In this document: positions 1 through 25,421 of the stretch, one piece after another
Numbering within the stretch: the stretch's first letter is position 1
Layout of the letters: every line of letters starts with the position of its first letter
NCBI GenBank assembly: GCA_903870815.1
Contig: CAIQEI010000017.1
Span: 1-37,841, forward strand
Length of the DNA: 37,841 nt
Direction of reading: 5' to 3'
From: an uncultured Verrucomicrobia subdivision 3 bacterium
GTDB taxonomy: Bacteria > Verrucomicrobiota > Verrucomicrobiia > Limisphaerales > UBA11358
Position numbers and translations under genes: made by a program
Notes under the pieces: model-generated
What the model was told of the DNA's origin: nothing
The model's database searches: none
Seen by the model: only the letters and a program-made list of their open reading frames with translations

Positions 1-72
1 GCTTTTTTCACCGCGATCCGCCTCCCGCAGGATGCGAATCTTGTCTTCCGTCGTGTATCGTTTGCCTTTCAT
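1..72 (-). CDS. IS3-family transposase OrfA, N-terminal fragment cut by window edge
   Basis: Reading leftward from the ATG at 72, the 24 codons inside the window give MKGKRYTTEDKIRILREADR and then GEKS. Short Lys/Arg-rich starts of the form 'K-R-Y-T-x-E-x-K-I-x-I-L-x-E' are typical of the helix-turn-helix OrfA of IS3-type elements, which acts with OrfB as a DDE transposase. The rest lies beyond position 1. The leader between 72 and about 138 ends in TG when read on the minus strand, as IS3 termini do. Family assignment rests on this short N-terminus only, so the subgroup cannot be told. Confidence 0.7.
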   Translation of the reverse strand, partial: MKGKRYTTEDKIRILREADRGEKS

Positions 73-138
73 GCGTCTGGTCCTTTCTTGCGTCTCAGAC
101 TAACACATCAGGTGGCCCGAAAAAGTGAAGTCACGTCA
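1..138 (-). mobile_element. End of an IS3-like insertion sequence
   Basis: The OrfA start at 72 is preceded on the minus strand by a 66-base leader that begins TGACGTGACTTCAC at 138. IS3-family ends start with TG and have leaders of about this size. The reading frame of the neighbouring FecR-TPR gene loses family resemblance at this point, which supports the boundary at 138. The other end and any target duplication are outside the window, so the boundary is inferred. Confidence 0.6.
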
Positions 139-1619
139 GGGTCCTTCGGATCGAGCTTCTTCGCCAGCGCCAGTTCCTTCGCCGCATGGGCGTCGTCGCC
201 GCCGGCTAGATACGCCTTACCGAGATAGCTTCGCAGCTCCGCGCGCTGCGGTTCGAGGGCGGCGGCGACGAGCAAGTCTTCGCGGCCGCCCTTCAAATCT
301 CCGGTGCGGATACGGCTAAGGCCGCGCCCGAGCCAGGCGTTGCCCAGCGCGGAATCGGCGGCCAGCGCGGCGTCAAAACTGGCGATGGCCGCGTGCGGAT
401 TATTTTGCGCGGCGAGAACAAACCCTTTCAGCGCGAGCGCCTGCGCGTTGCGCGGCGCGAGCGCGAGGCTTTTATCCAGAGCCGTCATAGTATCTTTCAT
501 CCGGCCAAAACTGAATTCCAGTTCCGCCACGCGTTCCCACGCGAAACCGAAATCCGGGGCGACGACGGTGGCTTGTTGCGCCAGCGGCAGCGCCTTTTGC
601 AGCGAGGTTTCGCGGACGCCGCGCGACTGCTCGAAGTAGGAGGCCGCGAGCAGTTCGGACGTGAGGTGCGGCGCAGCGGTTGTGACCGGCGGCTGACGCT
701 TCACGGCGGCGATGAGCTGGCGCAGCGAGTCGGCGAGCCGCTCGGTTTGTGCGGAAGGTTTCGGCAGCGCGGCCAGCGCGGCTTCGGTCCCGGCCACTTC
801 ACCCACGGACAGCAGCAGCGCGGCGTGGTAAAGGTTCACCGCATCGGAACCGGAATTTTCGGAGGGAAACCTTTTCAGTGCCGCCAGTAGATCGCCGGCG
901 CGATAAGCGGCGAGTGATTCCGCGAGAGTTTTCTGTTCGTCCACCGTGAGCGGGAGTTCATCCGGATCAATCACCGCCGGATAATAAAAGCACCATTGCA
1001 GCAGGTTGTTGGCGATGAAGCCGGCGGTGCGCGTAGGGGCCCGCCCCAATTCGGCGACGGCCTGTTCGCCATTGGTGAGCGACAGCGTGGCCTGGTCGTT
1101 GCCGAATTTTACCTTGCCGTCCACGACGGACAGCGTGGTGGTGTCGGCGTCATTCACGGCGAGGATGAACTCGGTGCCTTCCACACCGGCGACCGCGCCA
1201 CGCGTGATGATGCGAATGCGGCCGGGCTGGTCACGGTGAAAAAACGAAAGCACGCCCCGAATAAGATGCAGGCCGGACAGCGAACCGGGCGCGTCCGGCG
1301 GTAAGATCTCCAGCTCGGTCGAGGCGCCAAAGGGCACGATGCTCCGGTCTGACCAGCGGAGGGCCACGCGGCTGTCGGCGGCGGTGTGAATCCGGTCGAA
1401 CGGCTGGAGCGACTGATGGGTTTTAGCGGGGATCCAGACGGTGCCACCGGCGGGCATGATTTCCACCGAGCCCTGCAATTCGACGATTTGGATGGCGTTG
1501 GTGGCGGGCGAGGGGGCAGGGGACTGGGCAAAAACTTGCGGTATACCAGCCGCGATAAGAACAACCATCGCAGCCTGCAATACACGTTTCCCTTTATTGT
1601 AACACTTCAGACGCAACAC
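108..1619 (-). CDS. FecR-domain and TPR protein, C-terminus replaced by IS sequence
   Basis: This 503-residue protein starts with a signal peptide (residues 1-31, hydrophobic stretch 17-30, cleavage near VFAQ). A FecR-type domain follows at about 43-190, with the characteristic GVEGTEF at 145-151. The segment 230-310 is helical, and about 325-495 holds tetratricopeptide repeats with TPR-like A/L/G spacing. Secreted FecR-TPR proteins probably act as envelope scaffolds; no enzyme activity is suggested. From memory, relatives continue after a 'LDPxDP' motif into several hundred more residues. Here the last nine residues (DVTSLFRAT) and the stop are read from the IS end at 108-138, so the gene appears truncated. 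Start chosen because it gives a full signal peptide. It is divergent from the sigma factor at 1743. Confidence 0.8.
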   Translation of the reverse strand: MLRLKCYNKGKRVLQAAMVVLIAAGIPQVFAQSPAPSPATNAIQIVELQGSVEIMPAGGTVWIPAKTHQSLQPFDRIHTAADSRVALRWSDRSIVPFGASTELEILPPDAPGSLSGLHLIRGVLSFFHRDQPGRIRIITRGAVAGVEGTEFILAVNDADTTTLSVVDGKVKFGNDQATLSLTNGEQAVAELGRAPTRTAGFIANNLLQWCFYYPAVIDPDELPLTVDEQKTLAESLAAYRAGDLLAALKRFPSENSGSDAVNLYHAALLLSVGEVAGTEAALAALPKPSAQTERLADSLRQLIAAVKRQPPVTTAAPHLTSELLAASYFEQSRGVRETSLQKALPLAQQATVVAPDFGFAWERVAELEFSFGRMKDTMTALDKSLALAPRNAQALALKGFVLAAQNNPHAAIASFDAALAADSALGNAWLGRGLSRIRTGDLKGGREDLLVAAALEPQRAELRSYLGKAYLAGGDDAHAAKELALAKKLDPKDPDVTSLFRAT

Positions 1620-1742
1620 AATCGCCTAAAATCAATACCCACCCATGAAGTTCTAAAAAAAACATAATCTTCGAGTTTTTACAATTTTTTTCAGAAATGA
1701 TTTAATTTGCCAACCTTCGCGCAAAACTCCATTACTGCTGGC

Positions 1743-2384
1743 ATGGAAGAGGGGCAAGAGGAATTAATTCCAACGCGGGCCACACTGCTGCATCGACTGA
1801 AAGACTGGCAGGATCAGGCGAGCTGGCAGGTTTTTTTCGACACCTACTGGAAACTCATCTACAGCGTGGCGCTAAAAGGCGGGTTGACCAATGCGGAGGC
1901 GGAAGACGTGGTGCAACAAACCATGATCTCCGTGGCCAAGCACATGCCTGGTTTCAAATATGATCCGGCGCTGGGCAGCTTCAAGGCGTGGCTGCTGAAC
2001 ATGACCCGCTGGCGCATGGCCGACCAACTGCGCAAGCGGCAGCCGCGGCTGGTCGAATATCAGGAATTCCCACCGGACCAGGAGCTATGCCTGGCCGAAG
2101 GGGAGCGGGCGATCCCGGCGTCCGCCCAGGTTGAACCGGACCTGGAAAAGCTGTGGGACGAGGAATGGGAAAAGAATCTGCTCGCCGCCGCCATCGCCAA
2201 AGCCCGGCGCCGGCTGGACCCGAACCAATACCAGGTTTTTGACTGCTATGTGAACAAGGACTGGCCACCGGAGCGCGTCGCCAAAGCATTTGGCATTTCG
2301 GTGAACCAGGTTTATCTGGCCAAACATCGGGTGACCGGGTTGATCAAAGAGGAAGCCGAGCGGCTGCAAAAAGAAGTCGTCTGA
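1743..2384 (+). CDS. ECF-like RNA polymerase sigma factor, verrucomicrobial/planctomycete type
   Basis: A 213-residue sigma-70 family protein. Near its N-terminus it has the segment SWQVFFDTYWKLIYSVALKG, then a region-2 core with DVVQQTMISVAKHMP, GSFKAWLLNMTRWRMADQLRKR (DNA melting and -10 recognition), and a C-terminal region 4 helix-turn-helix around PPERVAKAFGISVNQVYLAKHRV. This form, lacking sigma regions 1 and 3, is abundant in Verrucomicrobia and Planctomycetes, where it is often beside a Ser/Thr kinase; none is seen here. ATG 1743 is preferred because family members start a few residues before TRxxLLxRL; an in-frame TTG at 1707 would add 12 residues. An AT-rich divergent promoter region (1620-1742) is shared with the FecR-TPR gene. 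Confidence 0.85.
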   Translation: MEEGQEELIPTRATLLHRLKDWQDQASWQVFFDTYWKLIYSVALKGGLTNAEAEDVVQQTMISVAKHMPGFKYDPALGSFKAWLLNMTRWRMADQLRKRQPRLVEYQEFPPDQELCLAEGERAIPASAQVEPDLEKLWDEEWEKNLLAAAIAKARRRLDPNQYQVFDCYVNKDWPPERVAKAFGISVNQVYLAKHRVTGLIKEEAERLQKEVV

Positions 2385-2769
2385 TTCATCGGTGGGATTC
2401 CGCAGTGGAGTTCATCTAGAATGATTCCCCCTCGCGACGGCGAACCGCCGGTTTCCATTCGCCGGGACGCGGCACCGAGGGCGCAAAATTCATTGATTTT
2501 CGGGCCAATTCCCCCCCCTTACAGATCGGCTCTAATAACCCGCCAAGTGGCGTTAGCCGGGTTCAATTTCCGACGTCCGCAAAATTTCTGAAAATAATTT
2601 GAAAGATTGGGATGGTTTGCCCGTATTGAAAGTGAGCGGCAAAATGGCCAACGGATTGGGGATAAAAGGGCGTTCGGCCAGCCGCTCCAGTCAACTCCGC
2701 CTTCGGGGGACGTTATTATGACGTGGGAAAATGGGGGTGGGCGGAGGCGGAGTTGATTCATTTACAAAC
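2385..2769. other. Intergenic stretch of about 385 bases without a convincing gene
   Basis: Between the sigma factor and the small gene at 2770. A short open frame 2421-2591 (+) is proline/arginine-rich and matches nothing I know. A run of eight C lies at 2511-2518. The right end carries a 12-bp inverted repeat listed separately. In related genomes a kinase gene often follows this sigma type, but I see no kinase motif here. Confidence 0.6.
2691..2756 (+). promoter_or_regulatory. Stem-loop ahead of the 2770 gene, possible cis-regulatory element
   Basis: TCAACTCCGCCT (2691-2702) and AGGCGGAGTTGA (2745-2756) are perfect 12-bp inverted repeats separated by 42 bases. The second arm ends 13 bases before the ATG at 2770. 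The loop holds a second small dyad (ACGT-tattatg-ACGT). It could be an operator or an RNA structure gating translation; the sequence does not say which. Confidence 0.45.
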
Positions 2770-3141
2770 ATGCAAGCCAATGGGCAAATTCTAACGATCG
2801 AAGACCGGCTGACCGCGCGCGGGCCGCGCGGCGAGCATTTATCCCTGCTCTCCGGCCAAGAGACTTTGGAGGAACTCCGGTATCTGATCATCCAGCTTTC
2901 CACCCGTTGTCGGGATCAACCGAATCAACCGCAATGTCCGTTTCGTTTATTGTCCAGTCTCAGTTATGCCGCGATGACCAGCATGGTCAAGGACCTGCCC
3001 CGCATTACGTGCCTTGATTTATTCCAGATGGAACTGGAATGCAGATCCCAACCGGATTCGGCGTGTTCATTAATCTGCAAAAACGGGCCCGGATATCCAT
3101 CCAGTTTACCAACCATCAATAGAAATGAACCCGGGCAATGA
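2770..3141 (+). CDS. Hypothetical protein with six cysteines, first gene of a three-gene cluster
   Basis: A 123-residue soluble protein I do not recognise. It has an acidic and basic N-terminal half, then six cysteines (in CRDQ, QCPF, ITCLDL, LECRSQ, ACSL and ICKN) and no signal peptide or membrane segment. The cysteine spacing does not match a zinc finger or ferredoxin pattern that I know. ATG 2770 is chosen over an upstream ATG at 2731, because 2731 falls inside the loop of the inverted repeat and would add a glycine-rich low-complexity leader. The stop TGA overlaps the next gene's ATG (ATGA at 3138-3141), which argues for co-translation with it. Coding status is moderately supported by that overlap. 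Confidence 0.55.
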   Translation: MQANGQILTIEDRLTARGPRGEHLSLLSGQETLEELRYLIIQLSTRCRDQPNQPQCPFRLLSSLSYAAMTSMVKDLPRITCLDLFQMELECRSQPDSACSLICKNGPGYPSSLPTINRNEPGQ

Positions 3142-3263
3142 ACAAGCGGCCGAAACGGGAACTTTCCCTGCACCAGAAACAAATGCGGTTCTTCACCGGT
3201 TTTTTCGGCGTGTTGGTGGTGTTGTTGGCGGTTTTTCTGTTATGGCTGTTGAATCGCCCCTAG
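3138..3263 (+). CDS. Small single-pass membrane protein (41 residues)
   Basis: ATG at 3138 overlaps the previous stop by four bases (ATGA). The product has a basic, soluble N-terminus (MNKRPKRELSLHQKQ), then one strongly hydrophobic helix at about residues 17-37 (FFTGFFGVLVVLLAVFLLWL), ending LNRP. The positive-inside rule puts the N-terminus in the cytoplasm. Function unknown. The overlap with the upstream frame and the 37-base gap to the next membrane gene suggest one operon. Confidence 0.55.
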   Translation: MNKRPKRELSLHQKQMRFFTGFFGVLVVLLAVFLLWLLNRP

Positions 3264-3300
3264 CGCCGCCGGGGAAAAATTCCGATCCCTTCAGAATCGC

Positions 3301-3651
3301 ATGAGAAGAACGGAGTTTTTAAAGTTCACCAGCATTTTATTGTTGGCCGGAATTTCACTGATCAGCATCGTCTTGCTGGTTCCCAACGCCGCCGGAGATC
3401 CGGCTCAGGGCTGTTTTATCAAAATCGCCGTGGCGCACTCATGGGGGAGGCTATTCGACCCGACCGCAGCCTGGTGCAGCCTCAAGCTCATCCTATTCAG
3501 CCTCGGCCTTTTTTTGGTCATTGAAACCTTGGGGACCATTCTGTGGGCGTTACAGCATAGGAATTCCGCCTGGGTCATTTACTCGCTGCACGTCGTGCCT
3601 TGCTTCGGGGTGCTTTTGGGCGGTTATTGTTTGCTCAAAGCATTGGTCTGA
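3301..3651 (+). CDS. Hypothetical multi-pass membrane protein (116 residues)
   Basis: The protein has a basic start (MRRTEFLKF) and about three hydrophobic segments: about residues 10-28, 60-82 and 90-114. The first is followed by a loop with a DPAQGC motif, and the loop between the first two helices holds AHSWGRLFDPTAAWC. Cysteines sit at about 38, 60 and 99. No family recognised. It is the third gene of the 2770-3651 cluster, and together they look like a small membrane-associated unit of unknown role downstream of a sigma factor. Confidence 0.6.
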   Translation: MRRTEFLKFTSILLLAGISLISIVLLVPNAAGDPAQGCFIKIAVAHSWGRLFDPTAAWCSLKLILFSLGLFLVIETLGTILWALQHRNSAWVIYSLHVVPCFGVLLGGYCLLKALV

Positions 3652-3686
3652 CCTCGTCCCCCCATTTCCCGGCTACTCCGGCAACA

Positions 3687-3857
3687 ATTGAGACTAGCAT
3701 AATACGGTGACGGAGCACGGCGTTTACGCCGCTTCAACGACCAGAAACACAAATTAGGTGGAAAGCCCAGCCCGCCGGCATTTTTCACACTGAAGCGGCG
3801 TAAACGCCGCGCTCCGCTCGCGTTAAATTCATGTCACTATATTTTGCAAGTCTCAAT
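3687..3857. repeat. MITE-like palindromic element upstream of the rpoE-type gene
   Basis: The outer inverted arms are 3687-3710 (ATTGAGACT...GTGA) and 3834-3857, matching at 20 of 24 positions. The inner arms are 3711-3736 and 3791-3816 (26 bp, one mismatch), each holding the hairpin CGGCG-ttta/taaa-CGCCG. The right side has 17 extra bases between its inner and outer arms. The spacer 3737-3790 encodes nothing. The size (171 bp) and nested inverted repeats are those of a non-autonomous MITE or REP-type element. No clear target duplication is visible. Confidence 0.7.
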
Positions 3858-3918
3858 AAGAGGCGGGAGCCAACCGAAACCTTGTCGCCGCCCGCGCTTG
3901 CATTAAACTGGGGCGACG

Positions 3919-4521
3919 ATGCCCGACCCAGTGGATCCCGATGCCATGCTGATGCTGCGCGTAAAGCGCGGCGACCGCGCGGCGTTTGCGGAACTGGTCG
4001 AAAAATACCGGCAGCCACTCTTTAATTTCGTTTTCCGCACGCTCCGCGACGAGACCGAGACCGACGACGTCGCCCAAAACACATTTTTGCAGGTCTGGAA
4101 ATCCCGCGCCCGCTATCAGCGTACCGCCAAGTTTTCCACCTGGCTCTTCACCATCGCCCGCAACCTATGCCTGAATGAAATCCGGCGCCGATCCCGGCAT
4201 CCCGCCGAATCGCTGGAGGAAACCCACGCCGAACACGACGACCAGCCGCAGCGGCAATACGTGGACAAAAAGGTTTTGCTGCCGACGGAAAATGTTTTGC
4301 ACGGCGAGCTGGCCCGGAAAATCGAGGAGGCGCTTGATGAGCTGCCGGAAAACCAGCGCACCGCCATCCTGCTTTGCCAGCAGGACGAGGTAAGCTACGA
4401 GGAAATTGCCGAGATTCTGGACTGCTCGCTGTCGGCCACCAAATCGCTGATCCATCGCGGCCGCGAAACGCTCAAGGAAAAACTCAAGCCCTATCTCCAA
4501 ACCGGCGAATGGACGAAGTAA
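3919..4521 (+). CDS. RNA polymerase sigma factor, RpoE-like ECF
   Basis: A 200-residue ECF sigma factor. Region 2 spans roughly residues 14-85 (FAELVEKYRQPLFNFVFR, DDVAQNTFLQVWKS, FSTWLFTIARNLCLNEIRRR). Region 4 is at about 130-190 (LDELPENQRTAILLCQ, SYEEIAEILDCSLSATKSLIHRGRETLKEKL), the -35-binding helix-turn-helix. It directs RNA polymerase to a specific promoter set. No zinc-finger anti-sigma gene follows; the next gene (4610) encodes a polytopic membrane protein that could serve that purpose, but this is speculation. The ATG lies 61 bases after a MITE-like element, which may influence expression. Confidence 0.9.
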   Translation: MPDPVDPDAMLMLRVKRGDRAAFAELVEKYRQPLFNFVFRTLRDETETDDVAQNTFLQVWKSRARYQRTAKFSTWLFTIARNLCLNEIRRRSRHPAESLEETHAEHDDQPQRQYVDKKVLLPTENVLHGELARKIEEALDELPENQRTAILLCQQDEVSYEEIAEILDCSLSATKSLIHRGRETLKEKLKPYLQTGEWTK

Positions 4522-4609
4522 TCTGAAAATCGCGGCTGATCGCAATTTCGCCGGCGGCAAGTGTTGAATTTGTTTTTCCAAACGCGGATCTTCCCGCATC
4601 ATTTCCCCG

Positions 4610-5287
4610 ATGACGCCGCCCAATCCGCAACTGCTCCGCTCGCTCGGCAAACTGGCGCGCGGGCTTTCGGCCTTGTTCTGGGGGCTGCCCGCCACGCTGC
4701 TCATCGGGGCGGAGACCGCGCGGGCCGACTGGCTGAAGCCGCTGGGTTTTCTGCCTGCGCTCGCCGTCAGTGCGCTGCTGGTCTATGGCCTGTGGCAGAT
4801 GGCGGATTTCCAACGGCAGGAACGCCCGTGGCGGCACGCGCTCGATCGCACGCTGTTGCTCGCCGTCGTCATCCTCGGCCTGTGCCCGTTCATCTACTGG
4901 CACAACAAGCTGCCGGAACAGGCGTTCTTTGCCGATGCCGTGCTGGTGCTGGAGCTCGCCGCGGTGCTGTTCCTGTTCAATTTGAACCTCGTGCTGCGGC
5001 GGTTGGCCGCGATGCTGCCGGACGAGACGCTGCGGAGCGAAACCCGCCAGTTCACCGCCTTCAACCGCTGGCTGCTGGTGGGGCTGCTCTTTTTAGCAAT
5101 CGTCATCGCCGCGCTGGTTCAACTGCCCCATCCCTCGCCGCCCATCGGCAAGGTTTTGATTTGGATCAACCGCGCGAGCAACCTGCTGCTGATATTTTTC
5201 ATCCTCCTGCCGCTGGCCATGACGATGGCGTTGATCTGGAAAACCAAGGAAGTGATACTCGACGCCGTCTTTGGCGCGCGGAACTGA
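4610..5287 (+). CDS. Hypothetical polytopic membrane protein (225 residues)
   Basis: About six hydrophobic segments (roughly residues 20-38, 44-63, 82-100, 108-127, 150-168 and 184-210) with a basic N-terminus (QLLRSLGKLARG). Between helices 4 and 5 is a cytoplasmic-looking stretch (RRLAAMLPDETLRSETRQFTAF). I recognise no named family. It lies 88 bases after the ECF sigma gene on the same strand, so co-transcription is likely and a regulatory partnership possible. The ATG at 4610 is the first that gives a balanced N-terminus before the first helix. Confidence 0.65.
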   Translation: MTPPNPQLLRSLGKLARGLSALFWGLPATLLIGAETARADWLKPLGFLPALAVSALLVYGLWQMADFQRQERPWRHALDRTLLLAVVILGLCPFIYWHNKLPEQAFFADAVLVLELAAVLFLFNLNLVLRRLAAMLPDETLRSETRQFTAFNRWLLVGLLFLAIVIAALVQLPHPSPPIGKVLIWINRASNLLLIFFILLPLAMTMALIWKTKEVILDAVFGARN

Positions 5288-5385
5288 AAGGTTTTCCAGC
5301 GAAGGATTTGGTGCATTCCACCAAATATATAGCGATGCGCTGCTGGTCCTGATGGGCCCGGCGCCAAATCTTTTCGGTCAAGGCG

Positions 5386-5841
5386 CTATTTTTCCGGCGG
5401 CACCGCTTCCAATTCCAGCTTGAGCGCATGCAGGGAAAGGTTGATGTCGCCCATGAACGCGACCAGCGAAACGCAGAGCGAAAGCAGGCAGGCAACAAAA
5501 ATCACGCCCAGCGGCCAGCCCTGATGCCATTGCAGCCAGGCCGAGACAAACACCGTCACCACCAGCACCGCCGCCAGCAGCGCGCTCGTCACGGAGAATA
5601 AAATTGCGAGCCGGATGATTCGGGCGCGGCGGTAAATGATGTCCACCTGCGCCTGCGTCTGCGACCGCTCGCGGCCGGTTTGGGCGGCGAGCTCATTGGT
5701 CATCTGCCGGGCGCGGTCAATCGCGCGGCCCAGCCGGTTGGTCATGGTCAGGAGCAACAGGCCGACGCCGGAGATCAGGATGACCGGGCCGACGGCGTCC
5801 CGGAGCTGCGGGATGATTTGTTCAAGCGAGGTGATGGGCAT
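5386..5841 (-). CDS. DUF2721 family membrane protein
   Basis: A 151-residue protein with three hydrophobic segments: about residues 17-31 ([16 protein letters not shown]), 74-100 and 109-130. Between the first two is a charged helix with [17 protein letters not shown] and later [14 protein letters not shown]. The 'NRxxRxIDRxR' helix after the first transmembrane segment is the hallmark of DUF2721, small bacterial membrane proteins of unknown function. The ATG at 5841 (MPITSLEQI) matches the usual start; a longer frame back to 5907 adds an unlikely leader. It is convergent with the 4610 gene and divergent from lpxD. Confidence 0.8.
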
Positions 5842-5953
5842 AAATTGCAGAGACAGTTTAATCGCACCGGACCAACAATCAACAGCCACAAATTGCCGAC
5901 CCCTCACCGGAAATTGCGGCGGCGGCGAATGCCCGGGCCGTCAAAGTTGGGGA

Positions 5954-5981
5954 TTGAACAGATTCTGCGCGGCTTTATAGT
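5954..5981 (+). promoter_or_regulatory. Candidate sigma-70-type promoter of lpxD
   Basis: TTGAAC (5954-5959) and TATAGT (5976-5981) are separated by 16 bases and end 19 bases before the lpxD ATG. The -10 box matches the consensus at five of six positions. Confidence 0.5.
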
Positions 5982-6000
5982 GAGCCGGACAATTCAAGTC

Positions 6001-24680: not shown

Positions 24681-25055
24681 GGCTGAATTGTGAATCCATC
24701 AACTGCTTTTTGCCGCCAAATGTCCAGACAAAAATTGCTCGGCAATGGAATCAAAGAGGCGAACGGAAACCGTCTAATGGGCATGGCTGAATCGCGCTTT
24801 ACGGATGATTCCCGGCGGACCCGATAAATTGCGGAAGGTAACTGTCCTGATTTCAGTGAAAAATTTGGCCGGTATGGACGTATCTACCAACTGACTAGCT
24901 TTCACTGACGACGGTCTCACGGGTTTCGCGTCGTCTGGGGACCGTCAACCGACACTTACGTCCACACCAGCCAAATGAACCTCGTCCTTTTTCCGGTTCT
25001 GTCAAGGGCAGATGGGATGAGGACTTGCTTTCCTCAATAAATACGTGGTTTTCTC

Positions 25056-25130: not shown

Positions 25131-25421
25131 ATGGCAAAAGCCTTGACCAAATCCCAAATCGCCGCTGAAATCGCTAACCAGAACAGCCTCACCAAAAAGC
25201 AAGCCGTCGAGATTCTTGAACAATTGGCCGCGCTCTCCTACAAGCACGCCAAAGACACGTTCACCTTTCCCGGAATCGGCAAACTGGTGCTGGTCAATCG
25301 CAAGGCCCGCATCGGACGTAATCCGGCCACGGGTGAAACCATCCAGATCAAGGCCAAGAAAGTCGTGAAGTTCCGCGTCGCCAAGGCCGCCAAAGACGCG
25401 ATCCTCGGCGTGGCCAAGTAA
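25131..25421 (+). CDS. HU-family DNA-binding protein
   Basis: 96 residues: MAKALTKSQIAAEIANQNSL, KKQAVEILEQLAALSYKHAK, then the DNA-binding arm FPGIGKLVLVNRKARIGRNP with ATGETIQIKAKKVVKFRVAK and a lysine-rich end. It lacks the RNFG of the first HU-type gene and reads like an abundant nucleoid protein. It has its own strong promoter candidate and a clear terminator, so it is a single-gene transcript. Confidence 0.95.
   Translation: MAKALTKSQIAAEIANQNSLTKKQAVEILEQLAALSYKHAKDTFTFPGIGKLVLVNRKARIGRNPATGETIQIKAKKVVKFRVAKAAKDAILGVAK

Follow-up and report, generated by a model that had tools for sequence, protein, structure and literature searches.

The window, by which we mean the whole 37,841-nucleotide stretch of DNA analysed here, comes from an uncultured Verrucomicrobia subdivision 3 bacterium and carries close to its start a sigma factor gene that is followed on the same strand by a conserved hairpin and three small genes. 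The features considered below are:

108..1619, minus strand: divergent FecR/TPR protein gene (Pfam FecR, E 1.1e-11, plus TPR)
1743..2384, plus strand: ECF-type sigma factor gene, 213 aa, with Sigma70_r2 and sigma70-ECF matches
2600..2625, plus strand: promoter TGAAAGATT-N13-CGTA, the putative sigma-factor target
2689..2758, plus strand: conserved hairpin RNA with a 15-17 bp stem and a G-tract loop of ~36-42 nt
2770..3141, plus strand: gene1, 123 aa, soluble, cysteine-bearing, of a genus-restricted family
3138..3263, plus strand: gene2, 41 aa, single TM helix, member of a multi-copy family
3301..3651, plus strand: gene3, 116 aa membrane protein with three predicted TM helices

These coordinates agree with the original prediction, which had described a perfect 12-bp inverted repeat ending 13 bases before a small cysteine-bearing gene, an ATGA overlap of that gene with one for a 41-residue single-helix protein, a 116-residue membrane protein behind them and a sigma factor gene just upstream. 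The arms of the repeat are TCAACTCCGCCT (2691-2702) and AGGCGGAGTTGA (2745-2756), the ATG of gene1 is at 2770, and the ATGA overlap is at 3138-3141. The sigma factor matches Sigma70_r2 (E 4e-11) and the sigma70-ECF superfamily (E 1.8e-20), both over the cut-off, and region 4 alone gives a weak match (E 0.1). From the position of its gene, the FecR/TPR protein is likely to be the partner of this sigma factor. An ECF-type sigma factor gene divergent from a FecR-domain gene is also the arrangement of the ECF sigma/FecR modules of Bacteroidota and Verrucomicrobia; unlike these, the window adds a linked RNA hairpin and a small-protein operon, and we know of no described module of the type with such a hairpin or operon. 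By eye, the contig start (window 1-110) looks like the terminal part of an IS3-type transposase helper gene. Immediately 3' of gene3, at 3687-3857, lies a MITE/REP-like element with nested inverted repeats (26-nt arms at 96% and 25-nt arms at 84%), in which the palindrome AGCGGCGTAAACGCCGC occurs twice.

None of the three small proteins had been recognisable at the outset, and profile searches bore this out: no Pfam or NCBIfam family matched any of them with a meaningful score, nor did PDB profiles match gene1 or gene3. The genus has relatives of gene1, often diverged paralogues, in 12/49 genomes, and none was found in 195 other genomes of the order; the relatives share the motifs GxE..ELR, CPFRxL and ExxCR; a plasmid search with gene1 gave no match, and an AlphaFold model of gene1 alone was too poor for use (pLDDT 46). 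The gene2 family comprises single-TM proteins of 40-45 aa with the motif HQKQMRFFTxFFG, with matches in 38/49 genomes of the genus, and many of its copies are located after a gene for a 240-aa membrane protein and upstream of a dnaK-like gene. In this recurrent pair the 240-aa protein (MIGAFLNALGILLGALFGL) is followed after ~50 nt by a gene2-like TM protein of 42 aa, and a dnaK-like gene in convergent orientation often comes next (L055, L058, L059, L061-L064, L066, L068, L070-L073, L077). Gene3, characterized by the motif AAWCSLKIILLS, occurs in 18/49 genomes of the genus and also in further families of the same order, frequently as a lone gene; modelled by AlphaFold with one relative it forms three long TM helices (pLDDT 73), and this model has no significant match among PDB structures.

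Conservation of gene order, which the original prediction had proposed as a check, is encountered in G003 and G016, two further species of this genus, where the order is gene1, a 53-aa TM gene, gene2, gene3, a multi-PAS histidine kinase and a NarL-type response regulator with a GerE domain. G013 and G047 have gene2, gene3, kinase and regulator with gene1 missing, and G041 has gene2, gene3 and a regulator. The differences between G003 and G016 concentrate at third codon positions, which places the frames under coding selection, and the recurring order marks gene1, gene2 and gene3 as genuine genes. Their company with histidine kinases in these relatives suggests a small membrane-signalling role for the encoded proteins. 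The cluster had been put forward as a real three-gene unit with a structured leader; gene order, together with the covariation described below, upholds the real unit and the structured leader, but the unit varies in content and extent, as it may lose gene1, gain a fourth gene, or continue into a kinase and its regulator.

In the window the stem extends over 15 nt at 93% and, once G-U pairs in the RNA are counted, over 17 bp, and the single-sequence fold is moderately better than shuffles (z -1.8). It is rather the comparative evidence that places the hairpin beyond chance. Over 12 distinct sequences or loci, taken from draft assemblies of species that are not independent, 94.4% of the cells of a 15-bp stem are paired, double-sided changes affect 10/15 pairs (22 cells), and covariation reaches 0.478 against 0.283 in shuffled alignments, with 0/500 shuffles as high. 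Sliding the partner abolishes this covariation, and an earlier set of 5 hairpins gave the same outcome. The compensatory changes that the original prediction had suggested looking for are thus present, and the comparison identifies the stem-loop as a conserved RNA hairpin. The set was assembled with a covariance model of the first five hairpins, those of the window, G003, G016, G013 and G047, which yielded further copies in the genus, then by examining the sequence 3' of the sigma gene and by searching for a motif, and finally with a second covariance model, the E-values of both being rough. Weak covariance matches outside the genus (E ~1e-3) were rejected, as they fell mostly in coding sequence, and likewise a match in G021 and a second one in G044, both inside a coding frame. 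An integron attC reading was discarded as the core GTT is not kept. As relatives read the hairpin in different frames it is not coding, and on the same ground an upstream in-frame ATG (2731) was rejected as the start of gene1. A search of Rfam 15, covering positions 1-6000 of the window and 11 other loci with the hairpin, gave no match at the gathering cut-off apart from a tRNA. The hairpin precedes gene1 in G003 and G016 and gene2 in G013 and G047, and further copies, described below, lie at loci of a second type. Taken across these loci, the hairpin is a previously uncatalogued RNA, and it is this RNA, not the gene cluster, that forms the constant part.

Every loop is rich in G on the RNA strand and consists of 69-81% purine, with lengths of 18-96 nt across loci. 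In all 14 loops analysed the G-richness falls on the same strand, and they contain 64 GGG runs, where 35.1 are expected from mononucleotide shuffles (0/2000 as high) and 44.7 from dinucleotide shuffles (0/1000). A four-tract quadruplex motif with spacers of up to 12 nt is present in 10/14 loops, the loop of the window being among the remainder. The G-tract loop is most likely the recognised part of the RNA, either through a protein that binds single-stranded G-tracts or through G-quadruplex folding.

Twelve of the hairpins are of a sigma type, and 11 of these share a contig with an orthologue of the sigma factor, the contigs being different in G005. In the window, G039, G014, G042, G023, G044 and G026, ~140-650 nt separate the hairpin from the sigma gene, or its orthologue, upstream of it; in G024, G025, G031 and G013 the two share a contig and lie within ~15 kb of each other. 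All 12 have upstream the motif TGA[AC]AGAT[TA]-N13-CGTA with 12-13 of 13 matches, the hairpin lying 9-122 nt downstream of it, whereas the four hairpins of the kinase operons have 7-8/13 matches only. The motif was first noticed beside five hairpins and then searched genome-wide independent of hairpins. A loose pattern matches 26 of the 49 genomes of the genus, and sites with a spacer of exactly 13 are nearly confined to the 22 genomes with an orthologue of the sigma gene (14/22 against 1/27 of the others; Fisher p 5.6e-6). From this co-occurrence the sigma factor apparently recognises the TGAAAGATT-N13-CGTA promoter, of which the site at 2600-2625 is the only exact copy in its own genome. No sigma70-like promoter was found between the sigma gene and gene1. 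The hairpin had been regarded as the leader of the three genes; the wider family instead goes with the sigma factor upstream and its promoter, and no locus other than the window was found to combine this promoter with gene1, gene2 and gene3.

Other sites of the motif precede, as identified by eye, genes for response regulators, secreted Ig-like proteins and a papain-like protein, and it is plausible that these genes constitute a regulon of the sigma factor. The secreted Ig-like repeat proteins lie directly 3' of exact promoter copies (L174, L175, L195) and are likely to be an envelope or surface part of such a regulon. A one-mismatch copy, TGAAAAATT-N13-CGTA, is found at window 24857-24882, 248 nt upstream of a gene for an HU-like DNA-binding protein (25131-25421). 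The four kinase-operon hairpins have in common an inverted repeat TTTAG-N6-(C/G)TAAA ~80-110 nt upstream (L083, L084, L080, L081), which is perhaps a site or operator for the NarL-type response regulator of the operon itself.

The genes behind the hairpin vary. At sigma-type loci gene1 follows it in the window only; in G023 and G044 genes identified by eye, from their first residues, as response regulators start ~15-23 nt 3' of it; and PurA-family genes lie 3' of it in G039, G042 and G005 and just upstream at one G013 locus, within ~400 nt in each case. Two further explanations of the hairpin were considered. It could be an intrinsic terminator of the sigma gene or of the transcript from the sigma promoter, conserved as such: many loci do have it 3' of the sigma gene, and the stem is succeeded by T7 in G039 and G014 and, at a short distance, by T6 at one G013 locus, so that at these loci termination is a possible role. 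A terminator scan of the window, however, found none at 2689-2758, where the tail is TTCATTTAC; a U run is present at a minority of loci, the loops are far longer than those of terminators, and their G-tracts are conserved. Moreover, the promoter separates the sigma gene from the hairpin, and in G003, G016, G013 and G047 the hairpin stands at the head of the operon and has no neighbouring sigma gene, all of which makes termination an unlikely general function. We hold it equally improbable that the hairpin is a stand-alone small RNA whose place before gene1 is incidental, the three genes being expressed otherwise. Such an RNA would account for G024, G025, G031 and G026, where no gene starts close 3' of the hairpin, but a start codon lies ~6-23 nt behind it in the window, G023, G044, G003 and G016, and the lack of a sigma70-like promoter before gene1 also speaks against separate expression.

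The composition of the loop bears on a third explanation, in which the RNA would be a sponge of the CsrB/RsmZ type whose GGA motifs titrate a CsrA protein. Purine-rich loops on stems are common to both, and every loop has at least one GGA, with seven in G026; yet GGA is not above what composition predicts (40 against 33.3 expected, 122/2000 shuffles being as high), GGG runs being enriched instead, and there is a single hairpin here rather than an array, which leaves this explanation very doubtful. Finally, a functionless mobile repeat of the REP or MITE type, which the different MITE-like element just behind gene3 might bring to mind, is already contradicted by the essentially single copy per locus type and genome (with no DNA copy elsewhere in the genome of the window, G000), the fixed place after the sigma promoter, the compensatory changes and the conserved single-stranded G-tracts.

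The adjacency to PurA genes offers a candidate reader of the loop. PurA (PF04845) is present in 42/49 genomes of the genus in 1-7 copies each, and 4/16 hairpins adjoin such a gene against ~0.01 expected for random loci by our own estimate from ~1.8 copies per 4 Mb; the species compared are, however, related to one another. A PurA gene is also found next to a gene1 paralogue (G016) and next to gene3 (G018). The PurA gene of the window's own genome is on another contig (C128), and a scan of 30 other PurA loci found the hairpin at none. To our knowledge, the targets of bacterial PUR-domain proteins are hardly known outside Borrelia. PUR proteins prefer purine-rich RNA, the bacterial protein Bpur binding it with a KD of 13 nM (PMC3764826), and BpuR, likewise bacterial, acts as a repressor of its own mRNA (PMC9112904). 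Taken together, the genomic neighbourhood and the binding behaviour of Bpur indicate that a PUR protein is probably the best candidate reader of the loop. Like the bpuR mRNA bound and repressed by BpuR (PMC9112904), the hairpin places purine-rich RNA near a start codon, and, as in PUR-bound leader RNAs, a PUR-domain gene adjoins it at some loci. Unlike in the bpuR leader, the purine-rich loop is presented by a covarying stem, the downstream gene is often not purA, and binding is putative. These comparisons allow us to propose, tentatively, a circuit leading from the sigma factor through the G-tract hairpin RNA to a PUR-domain protein, which could be plugged in before different signalling genes, be they those of response regulators or those of a cysteine protein together with small membrane proteins.

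Our preferred explanation, held with moderate confidence, is that the sigma factor drives a G-tract hairpin RNA, either a leader or a small RNA, whose loop would be read by a G-binding protein or by quadruplex formation. The active sigma factor would give rise to a transcript from the promoter at 2600-2625 that first folds the hairpin and then reads into gene1, gene2 and gene3. As the stem closes just before the start codon, the hairpin can set downstream translation or stability; a protein bound to the loop, or a quadruplex in it, might thus control the next gene at the level of translation or stability; alternatively, the RNA might act in trans. At the sigma loci the hairpin would be a short stand-alone RNA or the 5' leader of a response regulator gene, a PUR-domain protein gene or gene1, whereas in sigma-less relatives it would lead the operon of gene1, the TM gene, gene2, gene3, histidine kinase and response regulator. 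In this reading the window joins the sigma-hairpin module to the small-membrane-protein operon. The small RNAs MicA, RybB and MicL of enterobacteria are driven by sigmaE, and similarly an alternative sigma factor would here regularly give rise to a conserved non-coding RNA; unlike those RNAs, the hairpin is encoded beside the sigma gene, has a G-tract loop and is often continuous with a downstream gene. We know of no bacterial circuit outside Borrelia in which a PUR protein and an RNA are linked in the manner proposed above.

These observations add a new structured RNA, without an Rfam entry, that is tied to an alternative sigma factor in an uncultured genus of Verrucomicrobia. The sigma factor itself gains a predicted promoter and a partial putative regulon comprising response regulators, secreted Ig-domain proteins and the hairpin RNA. 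That the three small genes adjoin, in relatives, the genes of a multi-PAS histidine kinase and a response regulator points to signalling rather than metabolism, and with the hairpin a specific RNA can be named as a candidate ligand of bacterial PUR-domain proteins.
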